A DNA stretch of 64,000 nt from Streptomyces rubradiris (GTDB taxonomy: Bacteria > Actinomycetota > Actinomycetes > Streptomycetales > Streptomycetaceae). The stretch is taken from the NCBI RefSeq assembly GCF_016860525.1, contig NZ_BNEA01000015.1, forward strand, positions 1,426,001 through 1,490,000. Direction: 5' to 3'. The translations under genes were made by a program, and so were the position numbers. Shown in pieces: positions 7,423 through 13,948 of this stretch (positions are counted from its first letter, which is position 1; every line of letters begins with the position of its first letter). The notes under the pieces are model-generated. The model was given only the letters and a program-made list of their open reading frames with translations. It had not been told where the DNA came from and ran no database searches.

Positions 7423-8568
7423 TCACACCAGGTTGGCCTCCGGGCGCGGGGCGTCGGCCGCGAACCGTTCGGCGCTCAGGGGGCCGACGTCCAGGAAGGG
7501 CGCGCGCCCCAGGTAGAGGTCGCGGATCACCTCGCCGACGGCGGGTCCCTGCAGGAAGCCGTGCCCGGAGAAGCCGGTGGCGTACAGGAACCTGGACACC
7601 GTCGGGGCCTCGCCGATCAGGGCGTTGTGGTCGGGGGTGTCCTCGTACAGGCCCGCCCAGCCGCCGGTGCGGGGCAGGTCCAGCAGGGCGGGGGCGCGCC
7701 GCCGCATCGCCTCGGTGAGCCGGGGCAGCCAGCGGTCGTGGGTGCCGGTGGCGAACCCGGGCCGCTCGTCCGGGTCGGACATGCCGAGCAGCAGGCCGGG
7801 GCCCTCGCGGTGGAAGTAGAGGCTGGTGGTGAAGTCGATGGTCATGGGAAGCCTGGCCGGCGGCTCCGGCACCGGCCCGGTGACGGCGATCTGCCGGCGC
7901 AGCGGCTGTACCGGGAGGTCCACGCCCGCCATCGCGCCGACCGGCCGCGACCAGGCACCGGCCGCGCAGACCACCGTGTCCGTGGCGATCGGGCCGAGGC
8001 TGGTGCGGACCCCGGTGACGGTGCCGCCGCGCAGGTCGATGCCGGTGACCTCGGTGTGGCGCAGGACGCGCACGCCGAGGGCGCGGGCGGCGCGCGCGTA
8101 ACCGTGGACGACGGCCTCGGGGGTGCAGTGGCCGTCGTCCGGGGAGTACGCGGCGGCCAGCAGGCCGTCGGTGGTGATCAGCGGGCAGAGGCGGCGGGCC
8201 TCCCGCGGGGTGATCAGGCGGCTGGGCACCCCGAGGGAGTTCTGCAGCCGGACGCCCGCCTCGAAGGAGGCCACCTGCTCCGGGGTGGCGAGCAGGAACA
8301 GATAGCCGACCCGGTGCAGCCCGATGTCCTGTCCGACCTCCCGTTCGAAGCTGCCGAACGCCTCCAGGCTGCGCGCGCCGAGCCGGATGTTCAGCTCGTC
8401 GGAGAACTGGGCGCGTACCCCGCCGGCGGCCTTGGAGGTGGAGCCGGCGGCGAGTTCGTCCCGTTCCACCAGGACGACGTCCCGCACTCCGGCGCGGGCG
8501 AGATGCCAGGCGACACTCGTGCCGATCACCCCGCCGCCGACGATGACCACCCGGGCCCGGAGACTCAT
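7423..8568 (-). CDS. FAD-dependent amine/amino-acid oxidoreductase (DAO family)
   Basis: A 381-residue flavoprotein of the DAO/sarcosine oxidase beta-like group. The dinucleotide-binding motif VVIVGGGVIGTSVAWHLA (residues ~6-23) is followed by the ribose-binding acid in VERDE. TSKAAGGVRAQF, the mid-protein AAGAWSRPVG and the C-terminal ATGFSGHGFLQGPAVGE are the usual FAD- and substrate-site segments. It should oxidise a secondary amine or amino acid with transfer of electrons to oxygen or a carrier. The ATG at 8568 has GGAGGGAG upstream. Only a degraded ribA-like scrap separates it from the MFS gene at the end of the putative zinc-regulated operon on the same strand, so it may be read with that operon (inference). 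Octopine/nopaline oxidase subunits belong to this family, but nothing here proves such a substrate. Confidence 0.86.
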   Translation of the reverse strand: MSLRARVVIVGGGVIGTSVAWHLARAGVRDVVLVERDELAAGSTSKAAGGVRAQFSDELNIRLGARSLEAFGSFEREVGQDIGLHRVGYLFLLATPEQVASFEAGVRLQNSLGVPSRLITPREARRLCPLITTDGLLAAAYSPDDGHCTPEAVVHGYARAARALGVRVLRHTEVTGIDLRGGTVTGVRTSLGPIATDTVVCAAGAWSRPVGAMAGVDLPVQPLRRQIAVTGPVPEPPARLPMTIDFTTSLYFHREGPGLLLGMSDPDERPGFATGTHDRWLPRLTEAMRRRAPALLDLPRTGGWAGLYEDTPDHNALIGEAPTVSRFLYATGFSGHGFLQGPAVGEVIRDLYLGRAPFLDVGPLSAERFAADAPRPEANLV

Positions 8569-8574
8569 CGCGCT

Positions 8575-8775
8575 TCTCCCTCCTCTCCGGTGCGCTGCGC
8601 AGATACCTGATGTTGCGCTCGCACGGCTCGATCGGCAACGGCATCTGCTCGGCCACCCGGACACCGTGCCGCACCCGCGCCTCCCGCTCGCGCGGGTTGT
8701 CGGACAGCAGCCGTACCGAGCGCGCCCCCAGGTCGCGCAAAGATGCCGGCGCCGATTGCGGTACGGCCCCGGAGC
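8575..8775 (-). pseudogene. remnant of GTP cyclohydrolase II (RibA) C-terminus
   Basis: Reading leftward, about 65 codons match the end of GTP cyclohydrolase II: AIGAGI, then, after a one-base shift, RDLGARSVRLLSDNP, followed by VAEQMPLPIEP and NIRYLRSAPERR. In intact RibA this is the GxGAqILRDLGvrsvRLLTNNP helix plus the final PHNxRYLxTK segment. Everything upstream, including the zinc-binding cysteines, is missing, and the frame has no stop of its own but runs into the FAD gene in another frame. It is a relic, not a gene. Confidence 0.6.
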
Positions 8776-8780
8776 CGGGC

Positions 8781-10019
8781 TCAGGCCGGTTCGGGTGCCG
8801 GGTCGTGGGTGGGGCGTTGGCTGGGCAGGACCAGGATCGCCGCCAGGGGCACCGCCGCCAGGACCGCCCAGGGCAGTGCCGGGGGCAGCCCGAGGTCGAG
8901 GAGCGCGCCGGAGGCCGTGCTGCCGAGCAGGACCAGCAGGCCGGAGACGGAGGACAGGGCGCCGGTGTAGAGGCCGATGCGGCCGGGTTCGGCGAGGTCG
9001 GGCAGCCAGGCGCGGGCGACCGGCGCGACCAGCATCTGGCCCACGGTGAGCAGGACGACGAGGGCGGCGAGCGGGGCCAGTCCGGCCGGGCCGGTGAGGC
9101 CGGCCGGGCGGGCCGCGGCGACGGCGGCGAACCCGGCGCCGGTCAGCAGCAGCCCGGCGGCCAGCGAGCGGCGCGGGGTGAGCCGGCGGCCCGCCCAGCG
9201 GGTGACGGGCAGTTGGGCGCCCACCACCAGCAGGGAGGACAGCGCGAACAGCCAGGCGACCGGCGCCTGGGAGCCGGAGGCGCGCCGTACTTCGGCGGGC
9301 AGGGCGAGGTAGAGCTGGTTGTAGGCGAGCAGTTGGGCGCCGTAGCCGCAACACAGGGCGAGGAAACGGCGGTTGCGCAGCAGCGGCGCGAGTCCGCCGC
9401 GCACGGCGACGGGTTCGCGGCCCGGGATGTGCCGGGGCAGCAGGACGGCGTGCCCGGCGAGTACGGCGGTGAAGACGGCCGCGCCGGCCAGGCAGACCGT
9501 GCGGAAGTCGGCCGTCAGCAGCAGGGCGCCCAGCAGCGGGCCGGTGAAGGCGCCCACCTGCCCAGCGACGGTGAACAGGGCCAGCACCCGGGCGCGCGGC
9601 CCGTCGCCGGCCTCCTCCCGCAAGACGGCCTGCCGGGCGACCTCCGACTCCACCGCCGGGGAGAACAGCGCGGCGGCGCAGCCGATCAGCAGGACGGAGC
9701 CGATCACCGACCAGGTCCGTTCGGCGTGGCCGAGCCAGGCGAACCCGGCGATGCGCAGCGCGCAGCCGGTGAGGACGACGGGCCGGACGCCGTACCGGTC
9801 GGCGAGGGCGCCGCCCACCACGAACAGCCCCTGCTGGCTGAAGGTGCGCAGCCCGAGGACGACCCCGACCAGCCAGCCGGCCATGCCGATCGCCGTGCCG
9901 AGGTGTTCGGCGAGGAACGGCAGTACGGCGAAGAAGCCGATGTTGAAGGCGAGTTGGGTGAGGATCAGCAGCCGCAGCAGCGGGGACAGCGGGGCCCGGT
10001 CGGTGCGCGGGGCGGTCAT
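8781..10019 (-). CDS. MFS transporter (probable exporter)
   Basis: A 412-residue inner-membrane protein with about 12 hydrophobic helices. The loop 2-3 signature of the major facilitator superfamily appears as GGALADRYGVRP. The start ATG at 10019 overlaps the stop codon of the permease gene in an ATGA, so the two are translationally coupled and the protein is the third member of the operon that begins with the solute-binding lipoprotein. An MFS exporter next to an Opp-type importer is the arrangement seen in opine-metallophore (staphylopine-like) loci, where it exports the metallophore; that role here is inference because no biosynthetic genes are seen. Confidence 0.88.
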   Translation of the reverse strand: MTAPRTDRAPLSPLLRLLILTQLAFNIGFFAVLPFLAEHLGTAIGMAGWLVGVVLGLRTFSQQGLFVVGGALADRYGVRPVVLTGCALRIAGFAWLGHAERTWSVIGSVLLIGCAAALFSPAVESEVARQAVLREEAGDGPRARVLALFTVAGQVGAFTGPLLGALLLTADFRTVCLAGAAVFTAVLAGHAVLLPRHIPGREPVAVRGGLAPLLRNRRFLALCCGYGAQLLAYNQLYLALPAEVRRASGSQAPVAWLFALSSLLVVGAQLPVTRWAGRRLTPRRSLAAGLLLTGAGFAAVAAARPAGLTGPAGLAPLAALVVLLTVGQMLVAPVARAWLPDLAEPGRIGLYTGALSSVSGLLVLLGSTASGALLDLGLPPALPWAVLAAVPLAAILVLPSQRPTHDPAPEPA

Positions 10020-11800
10020 CGGACGGCCTTCTCCCTTACGGTGCCGACGGGTCGGGCCGTCCTCGGCTCCGCCTCTGCCGCCGTCTCTGAAGCGCCGGTG
10101 AGTCGGGCCGGGCGGCGGCGGTGCAGGGCGCCCGCGGAGGTCACCGCCAGCGCGCCGAGGACGGCGAGGACGGCGGCGGGGGCGAGGACGGCCCAGGGGG
10201 CGCGTTCGGCGTAGGGCTGGTTCTCGGCGAGCAGCCGGCCCCATTCGGGGGACGGCGGCTGGGCGCCCAGGCCGAGGAAGCCGAGCGCGGCGAGGGCGAG
10301 CGCGGTGCCGGGCAGCCGCAGCAGGGCGTGCCGGGTGACGGACGGGACGACGGCGGGCAGCAGTTCGTGGCGCAGCAGGTACCAGCGGCCGGCGCCGAGG
10401 GCCCGGGTGGCGGTGAGGTGGAGGGCGGCGCGTTCCTGGCGGAGCAGGGCGGAGGTGTGGGTGGCGAGCGGCGCCCAGGCGACGGCGGCGACGGCGAGCG
10501 CGGGGGTGGCCGGGCCGCCCCCGGTGACGGCGGTGACCAGCAGCGCGGCGAGCACGGGCGGTACGGCGTTGACGGTGTCGGCGAGCGGCCCGGACAGCCG
10601 GGGCACCAGGCCGAGCAGCAGTCCGGCGAGCAGGGTGCCGGCGCTGATCAGGAGCGCGAGCAGCAGGGTGTCCAGGGCGCCGTGGGCGACCCGGGCGAGC
10701 AGGTCGCGGCCGAGCGCGTCGGTGCCGAACGGGTGGGCCCAGGAGGGGGGCCGGAGGCGGGCGGTGGTGTTCAGGGCGAGCGGGTCGCGGGGCAGGCCGG
10801 CCACGAGGACCGCGAGCAGCGCCCCGCCGAGCAGCAGCGGCGGGGTGCGGCGGACGGCCGGGGTGAGCCGGGGCGGGGCGGGCAGGGCGCCGTCGCGCAG
10901 GGCGGGGCCGGTGAGCAGCCGGACGGCGAGCCGGGCCGCGCCGGTGGCGAGCGCGGCGAGCAGCAGCAGGGCGAGGGTGCCGGCCTGGAGGACGGGCAGG
11001 TCCTGGGCGAGGGCGGCCTGGAGGGTGGTGCGGCCGAGGCCGGGGATGTCGTAGAGCTGTTCGACGGCGACGGCGCCGCCGGTCATGCCGACGACGAACA
11101 GGGCGGTGTTGGGCAGCAGTCCGGGCAGGCAGCGGCGGACCGCCTGGCGGGCGACGCGCGCCCGGGGCAGTCCGCGCGCGGCGGCGGCGCGCGCCCAGGG
11201 TTCGGCGAAGGCGCCGGGCAGCTGGTCGTCGAGGAGCCGGCCGAGGACGGCTCCGGCGGGCAGGCCGAGGGCGAGCGCGGGCAGCACGGTGTACTGGGGC
11301 CCGTACCAGCCGAGGGCGGGCAGCCAGCCGAGCTGGACGCCGACGACGGTGGCGAGGACGGAGGCGGTGAGGAACTCCGGCAGGGTGGCGAGCATCGCGG
11401 AGCCGGTGCCGCCGGGCCGGGTCCGGCCGCCCCGGTACAGGGTGCGGGCGCAGACCGCGGCGGCGGTGCAGGCGGCCACCAGGAGGGCGACCGCCATGAG
11501 CAGCAGGGAGGCGCCGAGCGCCTGTACGACGACGGGTCCGGCCTCGGCCCCGGAGATCCAGGACCGGCCCGCGTCGCCGCGCGGCAGTCCGCCGAGCCAG
11601 CGCCCGAGCAGGGTCAGCGGCCCGGCGTCCAGGCCGAGTTGGTCGCGGATGGCGGCGAGTACGGCGGGGTCCGGGTCACGGTCCTGGGCGCGGGCCTTGA
11701 GGACGGTGAGCGCGGGGTCGGTGCGGCTGAGCCAGGGCAGCAGGCCGATCCCGCACACCAGGGCGGAGGCGAGCGAGGCCCGCCACAGCACGGTCCGCAC
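10016..11800 (-). CDS. fused two-domain Opp/Dpp-type ABC permease
   Basis: A 594-residue membrane protein in which the two permease subunits of a peptide/nickel ABC importer are joined head to tail. The first half is DppB-like, with its EAA coupling loop at about 199-230 (FAEPWARAAAARGLPRARV). The second is DppC-like: HPFGTDALGRD at 356-366, the second EAA loop at 461-490 (ATRALGAGRWYLLRHELLP) and GFLGLGAQPPSPEWG at 507-521. The usual arrangement is two separate genes. It follows the solute-binding lipoprotein by 3 bp and overlaps the MFS gene by 4 bp. No OppD/OppF ATPase is encoded in the operon or elsewhere in the window, so the ATPase must be supplied from elsewhere. Confidence 0.88.
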   Translation of the reverse strand: MRTVLWRASLASALVCGIGLLPWLSRTDPALTVLKARAQDRDPDPAVLAAIRDQLGLDAGPLTLLGRWLGGLPRGDAGRSWISGAEAGPVVVQALGASLLLMAVALLVAACTAAAVCARTLYRGGRTRPGGTGSAMLATLPEFLTASVLATVVGVQLGWLPALGWYGPQYTVLPALALGLPAGAVLGRLLDDQLPGAFAEPWARAAAARGLPRARVARQAVRRCLPGLLPNTALFVVGMTGGAVAVEQLYDIPGLGRTTLQAALAQDLPVLQAGTLALLLLAALATGAARLAVRLLTGPALRDGALPAPPRLTPAVRRTPPLLLGGALLAVLVAGLPRDPLALNTTARLRPPSWAHPFGTDALGRDLLARVAHGALDTLLLALLISAGTLLAGLLLGLVPRLSGPLADTVNAVPPVLAALLVTAVTGGGPATPALAVAAVAWAPLATHTSALLRQERAALHLTATRALGAGRWYLLRHELLPAVVPSVTRHALLRLPGTALALAALGFLGLGAQPPSPEWGRLLAENQPYAERAPWAVLAPAAVLAVLGALAVTSAGALHRRRPARLTGASETAAEAEPRTARPVGTVREKAVR

Positions 11801-11803
11801 GGG

Positions 11804-13297
11804 TCAGCGCCGGGTGCCGGTGCCGATGAGGGTGCGCTCGTAGGGGTCGAGCAGCACGCCCTTGACGGAGCGGCCGACGCCGGTGATGACGCGCTGGTGG
11901 ACCAGCGGTACGACGGAGTCGGTGCCGAGGACACGGGCCTCGGCGCGCAGTGCCGCGTCCTGCCGCTTGACGGTGTCGGCGGTGCGCTCGGCCTCGGCCA
12001 CGGCCCGGTCGACGTCCTTGTCGCACAGCAGGGCCAGGTTGTAGTTGCCGGCGCAGGTGTAGTCGCCGGCGAGGATGGCGACCGGGTCGCCGGTGTCGAC
12101 GAGGCTGTTGCGGGCGAGCACGAAGGCGTCGAACTTCCCGGCGAGGGCGTCGCTCTCCAGCCGCGCGTACTCGCGGACGACGAGTTCGACGCGGAAGCCG
12201 GCCTTCTCCAGCTGCTGCTTCAGCACCTGGGCGACCTCGGGGAGTTCGGGCCGGTTGTCGTAGGTGGCCAGGGTGATCCGGGTGCCGTCGGGCCGCTTCG
12301 GGGCGGCCCTGCCGACCGGCGCCGGGTGCCGTCCCTCGGCCCAGCCGACGGCGGGTCCGTAGATGCCGGTGCCGCGGTCGGCGTGGCCCTCGTAGACGTC
12401 CTTGGCGAGGGCGGAGGTGTCGACGGCGGCGCGGGCGGCGGCGCGCAGCCGCGCGTCCTCGAACGGTCCCGAGCGGTGGTTGAGCAGCAGGCTGGTGGTG
12501 CGGGTGGTGGCGGTCTCCCGGCGGGTCTCCGGCTGGAGCGTGGCGGCCTGGGCGACGGGGACGGCTTCGGCGATGTCCGTGTCGCCGCTGCGCAGGGCGT
12601 TGGTGCGGGCGGTGCCGTCGGGGACGAAGCGGACGTCGATGCCGGCGGCCTGGGCGCGGCCGCCCCAGTAGCCGTCGTAGCGGTCGAGGGTCGCGGAGGT
12701 GGCGCCGGTGACCTTCTTCAGGACGAAGGGGCCGGTGCCGGCGCCGGCCGGGTCGACGTGGTCCTTGTCCCGGTAGGCCTTGGCGGAGAGCACGGCGAGG
12801 CTCGGGCTGGACAGCCGGAGCGGCAGGATGGGGTCGGGCCGGCCGGTGCTGACGCGTATCCGGTGCCGGTCCACGGCCTTGGCGGTGAGCGTCACTCCGG
12901 ACAGGGCGGCCGGGGCGGGCCGGGCGTGCGCGGCCCGGTCGAGGGAGGCGGCCACGGCGTCGGCGGTGACCTCGGAGCCGTCGTGGAAGGTGGCCTCGCG
13001 CAGGGTGAACTGCCAGGTGCCGGCGTCCTGCCGGCGCCAGGAGGAGGCGAGGGCGGGGGCGGCGGTGCCGTTGCCGTCGAGCGCGGTGAGGCTCTCGGTG
13101 ATGCCGAGCCGGCTCAGGATGGTGGCGTCGGCGCCGTACGGGGAGAGCCGTTCGGCGGGCGGGAAGGCGAGCGCGACACGGAGCCGCGAGCCGTCGGCGG
13201 GCTCGCCGTCCGCCTCGCCGGAGGAGGCGAAGCAGCCGGCGAGCAGGGGCGCGGCGAGCAGGGCGGCGAGCAGGCGGGAAGGGCGCGGGGCAGGCAT
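11804..13297 (-). CDS. family 5 solute-binding lipoprotein of ABC importer
   Basis: A 497-residue extracellular receptor of the SBP_bac_5 (peptide/nickel/opine) family, anchored by lipid. The signal peptide ends in the lipobox LLAGC (Cys22). Family segments are LSPYGADATILSRLGITESL, TFHDGSEVTADAVAASLDRA and GTGPFVLKK in the first half, with the canonical long C-terminal lobe. First gene of an operon with the fused permease (3 bp away) and the MFS transporter. A perfect 15-bp palindrome resembling a Zur box lies 64 bp before its start codon, so it is probably made when zinc (or a related metal) is scarce and binds a metal-chelator complex; alternatives are a peptide or a nickel chelate. Confidence 0.9.
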   Translation of the reverse strand: MPAPRPSRLLAALLAAPLLAGCFASSGEADGEPADGSRLRVALAFPPAERLSPYGADATILSRLGITESLTALDGNGTAAPALASSWRRQDAGTWQFTLREATFHDGSEVTADAVAASLDRAAHARPAPAALSGVTLTAKAVDRHRIRVSTGRPDPILPLRLSSPSLAVLSAKAYRDKDHVDPAGAGTGPFVLKKVTGATSATLDRYDGYWGGRAQAAGIDVRFVPDGTARTNALRSGDTDIAEAVPVAQAATLQPETRRETATTRTTSLLLNHRSGPFEDARLRAAARAAVDTSALAKDVYEGHADRGTGIYGPAVGWAEGRHPAPVGRAAPKRPDGTRITLATYDNRPELPEVAQVLKQQLEKAGFRVELVVREYARLESDALAGKFDAFVLARNSLVDTGDPVAILAGDYTCAGNYNLALLCDKDVDRAVAEAERTADTVKRQDAALRAEARVLGTDSVVPLVHQRVITGVGRSVKGVLLDPYERTLIGTGTRR

Positions 13298-13360
13298 GGT
13301 CCTCGGGTTCGTGCTGGGTGGGGGTGGCGTGCGGCTGGCTCCGGACGACGACAGATTACA

Positions 13361-13375
13361 TGGAAATCATTTCCA
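13361..13375 (-). promoter_or_regulatory. putative Zur box
   Basis: On the minus strand this is TGGAAATGATTTCCA, a perfect 7-1-7 inverted repeat. As recalled, actinobacterial Zur boxes are 15-bp 7-1-7 repeats built around TGxxAATGATTxxCA, and every fixed position fits. It is centred about 70 bp before the lipoprotein start and directly abuts the stop codon of the upstream acetyltransferase gene. Binding by Zur is inferred from the sequence only. Confidence 0.65.
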
Positions 13376-13948
13376 CTAAGCCATCGCGTGCTCGGGGTCG
13401 CCCACCGTGCCTCCGGTCCGCTTCAGGGGGATCTCGAAGTGCACGACGCTCTGTCCGCCCCCGGCGTCCTCGCGCTCGTCGTGCACGACCGTGCCGAGCG
13501 AGCGCCAGAAGGGTTCGGCGCCGGGCACGGCGGGGTCGGTGTGCAGGTACACGGACCGGTAGCCGCCGTCCGCGGCGGCGAAGTCCAGCAACCGGGCCAC
13601 CAGTTCGCGCGCGATACCCTGACGGCGATGGCTGGGGCGCACGTACACGCGGCGCAGTTGCGCGGTCGTGCCGGAGGGGTACCGTTCGGCCAGCCGGGGC
13701 GGGTTCGGCGGCGACTGCGGGCCGCGCGAGTCGAGGGCGCCGGTGCCGACGACCAGCCCGTCCGCGTCCACGGCGACGAGCAGGGTGTGCCGGGCGGGCG
13801 CGAGGTAGTAGGCGGCCGGGTCCACGATGTCGGCGTGCCACCGGGGCACGTATCCGGTGCCGAAGTCGCGGTAGACGGTGTCGAGCATGACGGACCTCGC
13901 ACTGTCGAGGTCGTCGGCGGTCGCGGGCCTCACGCTATATGTACGCAC
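13376..13948 (-). CDS. GNAT family N-acetyltransferase
   Basis: A protein of about 190 residues with the acetyl-CoA binding fold. Motif A is clear as LRRVYVRPSHRRQGIARELVARLL (with the Q/R-x-x-G-x-A/G loop in RRQGIA). The N-terminal RPATADDLDSARSVM and the C-terminal AEPFWRSLG are typical. The start is uncertain: GTG at 13948 or 13933 would both begin just before the first strand, and neither has a good ribosome binding site, so the message may be leaderless. It lies upstream of the lipoprotein operon on the same strand, 78 bp away with the Zur-like box in between, and has its own A/T-rich dyad over the start. The acceptor substrate is unknown; a link to metal uptake is only positional. Confidence 0.82.
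   Translation of the reverse strand: MRTYSVRPATADDLDSARSVMLDTVYRDFGTGYVPRWHADIVDPAAYYLAPARHTLLVAVDADGLVVGTGALDSRGPQSPPNPPRLAERYPSGTTAQLRRVYVRPSHRRQGIARELVARLLDFAAADGGYRSVYLHTDPAVPGAEPFWRSLGTVVHDEREDAGGGQSVVHFEIPLKRTGGTVGDPEHAMA

Follow-up and report, generated by a model that had tools for sequence, protein, structure and literature searches.

What is the function of a transport operon that encodes both an importer and an exporter, carries no ATPase gene, and stands behind a perfect palindrome? The question is raised by positions 8781..13375 of the window, by which is meant the whole 64-kb stretch of Streptomyces rubradiris DNA that was analysed. An earlier note on this DNA had described there a perfect 7-1-7 palindrome before a solute-binding protein, a one-polypeptide permease and a major facilitator superfamily (MFS) protein coupled by ATGA, and the gene calls confirmed this description. 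The minus strand from 13375 to 13361 reads TGGAAATGATTTCCA, an exact 7-1-7 palindrome (13361..13375, given as TGGAAATSATTTCCA with no strand assigned), and a -10-like hexamer, TAATCT, lies 2 bp downstream of it (13353..13358, minus strand). The genes that follow, also on the minus strand, encode a family 5 solute-binding lipoprotein (SBP; 11804..13297, ATG start at 13297, 497 aa, PF00496, lipobox Cys22), a fused B+C permease separated from it by 3 bp (10016..11800, 594 aa, two BPD_transp_1 stretches), and an MFS transporter that overlaps the permease gene at ATGA (8781..10019, 412 aa, PF07690, MFS_1). The permease halves are NikB/OppB-like at residues ~20-285 and NikC/OppC-like at ~330-560, and the SBP_bac_5 lipoprotein and two BPD_transp_1 domains of an Opp/Nik-type importer are thereby both present. 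The limits originally drawn hold for the operon; they left out a GNAT acetyltransferase gene on the same strand (13376..13933, PF00583), which adjoins the palindrome on its upstream side and is a partner in most close relatives. Its start codon is uncertain (TTG 13993 or GTG 13933), its TAG stop occupies 13378-13376, and the palindrome starts at the very next base. We consider it probable that this is a Zur-repressed transport operon for zinc scarcity, which would import a zinc chelate using an ATPase supplied in trans and export a related molecule through the MFS protein.

The palindrome was followed up with a pattern, TGRAAATSATTTYCA, used for the genome scans together with a position weight matrix (PWM). 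At up to 3 mismatches the window contained 3 matches, two of which are the same site on both strands, against 0.06 expected. At up to 1 mismatch the pattern was found in only 3 places in the whole 9.05-Mb genome, and the reversed control in none. The two other sites lie upstream of the gene for L32 (rpmF) and between the divergent genes for L33 (rpmG) and L28 (rpmB), the latter with genes for L31, S18 and S14 (ribosomal names assigned by eye) and a CobW-type gene as neighbours. According to PMC5472717, the genes controlled by Zur in S. coelicolor include both rpmF and rpmG/B, and the Zur motif derived there from chromatin immunoprecipitation (ChIP) is tGaNNatSatNNtCa; the window box agrees with this motif at 9 of 11 fixed positions. 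Allowing one mismatch, the published motif matched 84 sites in the genome as against 20 in its reversed control. It was too loose for ranking, so that TGRAAATSATTTYCA and the PWM were used instead. The PWM was trained on 32 boxes located next to ribosomal-protein and znu genes. It gave the window box a score of 30.6 (maximum 33.5), compared to a top background score of 14.0 among 399,720 15-mers from 400 kb of the same genome. The height of the window score is partly circular, because all training boxes but two znuA ones were found with the pattern and 3 of the 32 are identical to the window box; the background figure is not circular. A chance palindrome was rejected on the window scan, the genome scan with its reversed control, and the PWM background. 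The Zur-box shape proposed in the earlier note is thus strongly supported by the weight-matrix scan and by the conservation in relatives described below, and we predict that the palindrome is a Zur operator.

Elsewhere in the same genome, the region upstream of znuA holds the boxes TGACAGTCATTTTCA and TGGAAACCGTTGTCA, and a FUR-family gene is clustered with znuACB. Its protein falls below the cut-offs of the general Fur models of NCBIfam, and scores 36.9 bits against a cut-off of 167 for the Zur model. A second GNAT gene, whose product is 59% identical to the window GNAT, ends just upstream of the rpmF Zur box (L299 4160-5105, contig C7); the GNAT-box-gene arrangement at rpmF is the same as in the window.

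Across 61 genomes of the genus, the TGRAAATSATTTYCA pattern was found at 66 sites in 40 genomes, and the reversed control at 1. Sixty-five sites were classified: 19 at ribosomal-protein paralogues (one of them, the rpmF site of the window's own genome, assigned by hand), 11 at znu-type genes (in part on weak matches), 7 at genes for SBPs of the window family, and the other 28 at different genes or at no gene. The exact window 15-mer occurs four times in this set, namely in the window, twice between rpmB and rpmG, and once beside L31; the three copies in other genomes are all at ribosomal-protein paralogues. It could be argued from the 28 sites that carry no zinc-gene label that the palindrome belongs to another regulator, either a different Fur-family protein or an unrelated repressor, and that zinc is uninvolved. 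Approximately 10 of these sites were found by eye to stand beside metallophore-type binding proteins, PLP/DUF364 genes or nonribosomal peptide synthetase (NRPS) genes, others being intragenic or next to genes without an obvious connection to zinc. Since the only other near-perfect sites in the genome are those at rpmF and rpmG/rpmB, and the box also agrees with the ChIP-derived motif as noted above, another regulator is very improbable.

If the box is a Zur operator, it should accompany the operon in related strains. Relative loci were taken from the best 80 matches and from chosen stretches of further genomes, and are not a random sample; they were assigned to four clades, A to D, by identity and neighbours, with one locus (L139, SBP 33% identical) placed in none, and boxes were sought within 250 bp upstream. 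Clade A, to which the window belongs (85 loci), has the genes for GNAT, SBP, fused permease and MFS. With up to 2 mismatches, a box was present upstream of the SBP gene in 33 loci, upstream of the GNAT gene in 13, and upstream of either in 43 of the 85; with up to 3 mismatches, 68 of 85 had a box at one or the other. Clade B (17 loci) has the same genes, placed between ispD/ispF- and cysS-like genes by eye, and a box with up to 2 mismatches in 17/17; two of its loci lack the MFS gene and one is interrupted by a contig end. In clade C (18 loci) the SBP and fused permease genes are joined by two ATPase genes, and the box was found in all 18 at the same threshold. As a control, 1,658 further genes from these loci were scanned; 18 had a box with up to 2 mismatches, and 13 of these are the gene divergent from GNAT, sharing the GNAT box; the other five were by eye znu-type, NRPS-type or divergent from an SBP gene. 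In clade A, the box lies either between the GNAT and SBP genes or, where these two are adjacent, upstream of the GNAT gene (L071, L074 and L079 have both), and the GNAT gene would therefore also be behind the box in part of the clade. The sequence TANNNT was present exactly 2 bases downstream of 48 of the 69 SBP-proximal boxes, against a background of 0.001 per position. The box is thus placed as for repression and is conserved in orthologues, 17 of the 85 clade-A loci excepted. The earlier note had named as refuting a homologous locus with no conserved palindrome and with peptide-catabolism genes beside the operon; the palindrome is kept in many relatives, and no recurrent peptide-catabolism neighbours were noticed, by eye, in their gene maps.

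Two further observations concern boxes in other genomes. In L038, L058, L113 and ten other loci, a gene for a ParA/CooC-like ATPase (c11, named by eye) is divergent from the GNAT gene and has a common Zur box with it. Two genomes have the same 44-residue open reading frame (MEHNKVFSPIADQ...), preceded at a distance of 72-73 bp by a Zur-like box (L193, 3072; L218, 3082); it possibly encodes a zinc-regulated small peptide precursor.

The second part of the question is the absence of an ATPase. Clade-C ATPases were used as probes (ABC_tran proteins, one with oligo_HPY), and no OppD/OppF-type match was found at E 1e-3 among the 50 genes called in the window, as the earlier note had stated. Neighbours in clade A were counted at 80 loci with a called permease (79 of the 80 listed, plus the window), L112, in which no permease was called, being left out of both these counts and the permease tree. 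The SBP gene was directly upstream of the permease gene in 77/80 and the MFS gene directly downstream in 73/80, and in 70 of 77 loci a GNAT gene was directly upstream of the SBP gene on the same strand. An OppD/F-type gene was found within five genes in 0/80, the six weak ATPase matches in these neighbourhoods being a fused ABC protein of ~940 aa. By comparison, the two ATPase genes are in the operon in 18/18 loci of clade C. The B+C fusion of the permease is usual across its subfamily and not unique to the window. Of 296 genomes searched across the class, 23 have the fused permease at E <= 1e-70, 12 of them outside the genus and in six families. These 12 neighbourhoods and that of one divergent member of the genus were read: two OppD/F-type ATPases were present in 12 of the 13 (not in L338), an MFS gene within five genes in 12 (not in L341; on the other strand in L342 and L343), and in 8 a site with a PWM score of at least 14 immediately before the first gene. 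The pairing of import and export that had been proposed from the window therefore recurs: most close relatives keep SBP, fused permease and MFS side by side, and so do members of six outside families, mostly with two ATPases as well. In five relatives (L283, L335, L336, L337 and L347) the set is complete and runs SBP, fused permease, ATPase, ATPase, MFS.

In a maximum-likelihood tree built from 54 permeases, the 31 sequences of clades A, B and D, of which one is from Lentzea, group with a support of 100/100, apart from clade C and all outside sequences (midpoint root, drawn only). The sampled Streptomyces permeases that lack an ATPase thus all fall into a single clade. With the root placed outside A, B and D, one old loss of the ATPase pair would explain the absence, and L338 would be a second loss. 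As the relatives keep two ATPase genes in the operon and the window clade seems to have lost them, we infer that the importer, if it works, borrows its ATPase in trans, and to this extent the earlier proposal of an ATPase encoded elsewhere is supported. In the window's own genome, a query with the OppD-type ATPase of L134 gave 125 matches, and identity to the clade-C OppD-type ATPase reaches 51% at best.

The same absence could indicate decay: the SBP and permease would be inactive following the loss of the ATPase, the MFS protein, as an exporter of drugs or toxic metabolites, would be the sole working part, and Zur control would be inherited. In keeping with this, no OppD/F-type gene is near the operon in the 80 clade-A loci, and no orphan OppD/F pair was seen among the nine OppD/F loci of the genome that were read, each of which has permeases (the reading was not exhaustive, and OppF-type genes were not searched). 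The proteins themselves argue against decay. The SBP is intact and conserved, with a mean column identity of 76% over 25 sequences and a nearly invariant Cys22; the fused permease is mostly full length among the matches listed (80 loci; 120 proteins), and the window permease keeps an EAA-like coupling motif at residue 464. The ATPase loss is moreover common to the whole clade, and decay should therefore be visible by now. We consider a decaying importer quite improbable.

The nature of the imported substrate was addressed through the SBP. Its nearest NCBIfam models are of NikA type (NF045468 Opp5A_nikA, 202.7 bits compared to a cut-off of 600), and its best solved relative by sequence, in both searches, is the nickel-binding protein 3t66, with SaNikA (4ofj) third and the dipeptide and oligopeptide binders ranking lower than 3t66. 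This ranking of solved relatives favours binding of a metal chelate. The nearness to the nickel models of NCBIfam, in which the permease resembles the SBP, together with a CbiM-type gene behind the operon in one sub-branch of clade A, would fit an operon that is under Zur and serves another metal or metal sparing, for example as an importer of a nickel or cobalt chelate, or of peptides or amino acids when zinc peptidases fail. That reading is unlikely, as the Zur box points to zinc and the SBP and permease are far below the equivalog cut-offs for NikA, NikB and NikC. In the sub-branch concerned (L069, L078, L082, L088, L100 and L140), the CbiM-type gene and three further genes close behind the operon look like a nickel/cobalt energy-coupling factor transporter, only a CbiM piece of L082 having been checked.

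For the MFS protein, the nearest model is that of MdtH (NF008650, 167.7 bits, cut-off 469). It has two near paralogues in the genome, at 42 and 38% identity, the next being at 28%. One near paralogue adjoins a PALP-family gene (L300 6768-9136, contig C15), in a 16-kb stretch with no strong Zur box (top PWM score 9.6). The 38% paralogue lies in a candidate metallophore locus (L299 6804-18008; C7:510804-522008) that also contains genes for ATP-grasp, DUF364, PALP and enolase-superfamily proteins, a methyltransferase, an SBP_bac_5 protein, two permeases and a fused ATPase; this cluster is 2 kb from the GNAT-box-rpmF locus, and its promoter region holds TGAAAACGAATATCG, a weak box-like sequence (PWM 14.3). 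In another genome, PALP and DUF364 genes are found together behind a strong box. The PALP genes beside the paralogues and this boxed PALP/DUF364 pair suggest that the window MFS type may export small amino-acid-like chelators. A biosynthetic role was also considered for seven extra genes, c4-c10, which the close relative L034 has between its MFS and DAO genes and which by eye include genes for a PTPS-like protein and a GTP cyclohydrolase II-like protein. They are absent from the window (7423-8781 compared with L034) and wholly or partly from L041, L053 and L101, and because of this absence, and of a convergent gene that stands ahead of the block, the role was dropped.

Taken together, a Zur-repressed zinc-chelate transport operon would work as follows. 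Zinc-loaded Zur on the box would block transcription, since the predicted operator abuts the -10 hexamer. In zinc shortage, the lipoprotein would capture a zinc chelate, either a metallophore or another small chelate, originating from the cell itself or from its neighbours, and hand it to the fused permease, which would be powered by an OppD/OppF-type ATPase supplied in trans. The MFS protein would export the chelator, whether free or spent, or a small molecule related to it, in the manner of CntE, and the GNAT protein may modify the ligand. A fuller four-gene cycle can be drawn, in which uptake by SBP and permease with a shared trans OppD/F ATPase is followed by release of zinc through GNAT acetylation and export of the ligand by the MFS protein, the chelator being either synthesised by other loci of this genome or pirated from neighbours; this extension is tentative, and we doubt that it holds in full. 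The comparison of loci establishes the box, its recurrence, the conserved gene set and the absence of the ATPase across the sampled clade, whereas Zur repression, zinc-chelate import, MFS export, ATPase sharing and any GNAT role are inferred.

Several results weigh against this proposal. A laxer pattern adds one site in the genome, C15:2357860 (PWM 17.9), which lies between two gene ends and is therefore no promoter site. No box with up to 3 mismatches was found in 17/85 clade-A loci, some of which (e.g. L096 and L098) are truncated at the end of a contig; at this threshold 38 of the 1,658 control genes have one. The side branch D (13 loci) consists of SBP and permease only, with box, MFS and GNAT each in 0/13, so that zinc cannot be essential to the whole subfamily; in one of its loci, L135, a fused ATPase gene lies two genes away on the other strand. 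The ATPase-bearing form in Streptomyces mostly lacks an adjacent MFS gene (present in 1/18 clade-C loci), and the MFS protein is therefore not strictly tied to the importer. The missing orphan ATPase pair counts here as well, as does the poor AlphaFold2 model of the SBP (mean pLDDT 52.9). Lastly, the opine-type chelator envisaged in the earlier note was not upheld: the SBP scored 57.2 of the 800 bits of the CntA cut-off and the permease 66.6 of 440 for CntC, and no nicotianamine-synthase-like gene (PF03059) was found in the genome, with the control positive in 1/14, on which basis a nicotianamine-type chelator was rejected. Opine dehydrogenase (PF10100) gave no match in the genome, and none in any control genome either.

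If the proposal is true, a fused Opp/Nik-type importer with an MFS exporter joins the actinobacterial zinc-starvation response. The module would be widespread, occurring in many Streptomyces and, within the class sample, in six further families; an SBP of the window family was found at E <= 1e-60 in 90 of 199 Streptomyces genomes. The findings would also indicate a zinc ligand not based on nicotianamine, which could be found through the Zur-box clusters of the same genome and through the SBP. The traceable loss of the ATPase predicts shared ATPases for Opp-type importers, like those of Streptomyces sugar importers. There, MsiK is the shared ATPase. The window operon resembles these systems in that its SBP and permease genes have no ATPase gene with them and the ATPase would act in trans; the difference is that MsiK serves sugar importers, whereas the window importer is of Opp type, and to our knowledge no shared ATPase has been described for such an importer.

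Staphylopine transport in S. aureus offers a second comparison. The cnt genes are in the order cntA-BC-D-F-E (SBP-B-C-D-F-E), CntE being the exporter, and this order equals that of the five complete loci L283, L335, L336, L337 and L347. The system combines a NikA/Opp-type ABC importer (cntABCDF) with an MFS exporter (cntE), and both are regulated by zinc according to the excerpted source; the window likewise has an MFS exporter gene beside an Opp-type importer under a predicted Zur box. It differs in that B and C are fused, D and F are absent, no cntKLM was seen beside the operon, and the SBP and permease are far below the CntA and CntC cut-offs.

The predicted Zur control is also shared with the zincophore clusters for coelibactin and [S,S]-EDDS, and several boxed metallophore-type clusters of the present genome set have MFS genes too. 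Those boxed clusters have importers of FecCD/periplasmic-binding type (by eye) together with biosynthesis genes, whereas the window operon has an Opp-type importer and no biosynthesis genes, and no synthase gene was seen beside the present module. In a cntM-based survey of opine-like zincophore clusters, the actinobacterial ones have FecCD or Opp + FecCD importers, as far as its excerpt extends (PMC7438024).

The exact layout of the window operon was not found described in the openly licensed literature; the ChIP peak table of PMC5472717, which was not covered, may list it. The closest described relatives are in C. diphtheriae, for which the excerpts of PMC6711530 and PMC12445094 report two Zur-regulated transporters, one with a NikA/OppA-like binding protein, and nik1 and nik2 loci that support growth in zinc limitation. 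We took dip2162-2165 and dip2125-2128 to be nik1/nik2, a match that the source text does not state. As proposed for the window operon, these are actinobacterial NikA/OppA-type transporters under Zur, as described in those excerpts; the likeness is by description. In contrast, dip2162-2165 encodes an SBP, two permeases and one ATPase beside the sidAB NRPS/polyketide synthase genes, and no MFS partner is described for either locus in the excerpted text. On the excerpts available, Zur-regulated NikA/OppA-type importers are thus already known from Corynebacterium; the layout found here is a reduced form of the module that the more distant relatives of the window operon carry with two ATPases.

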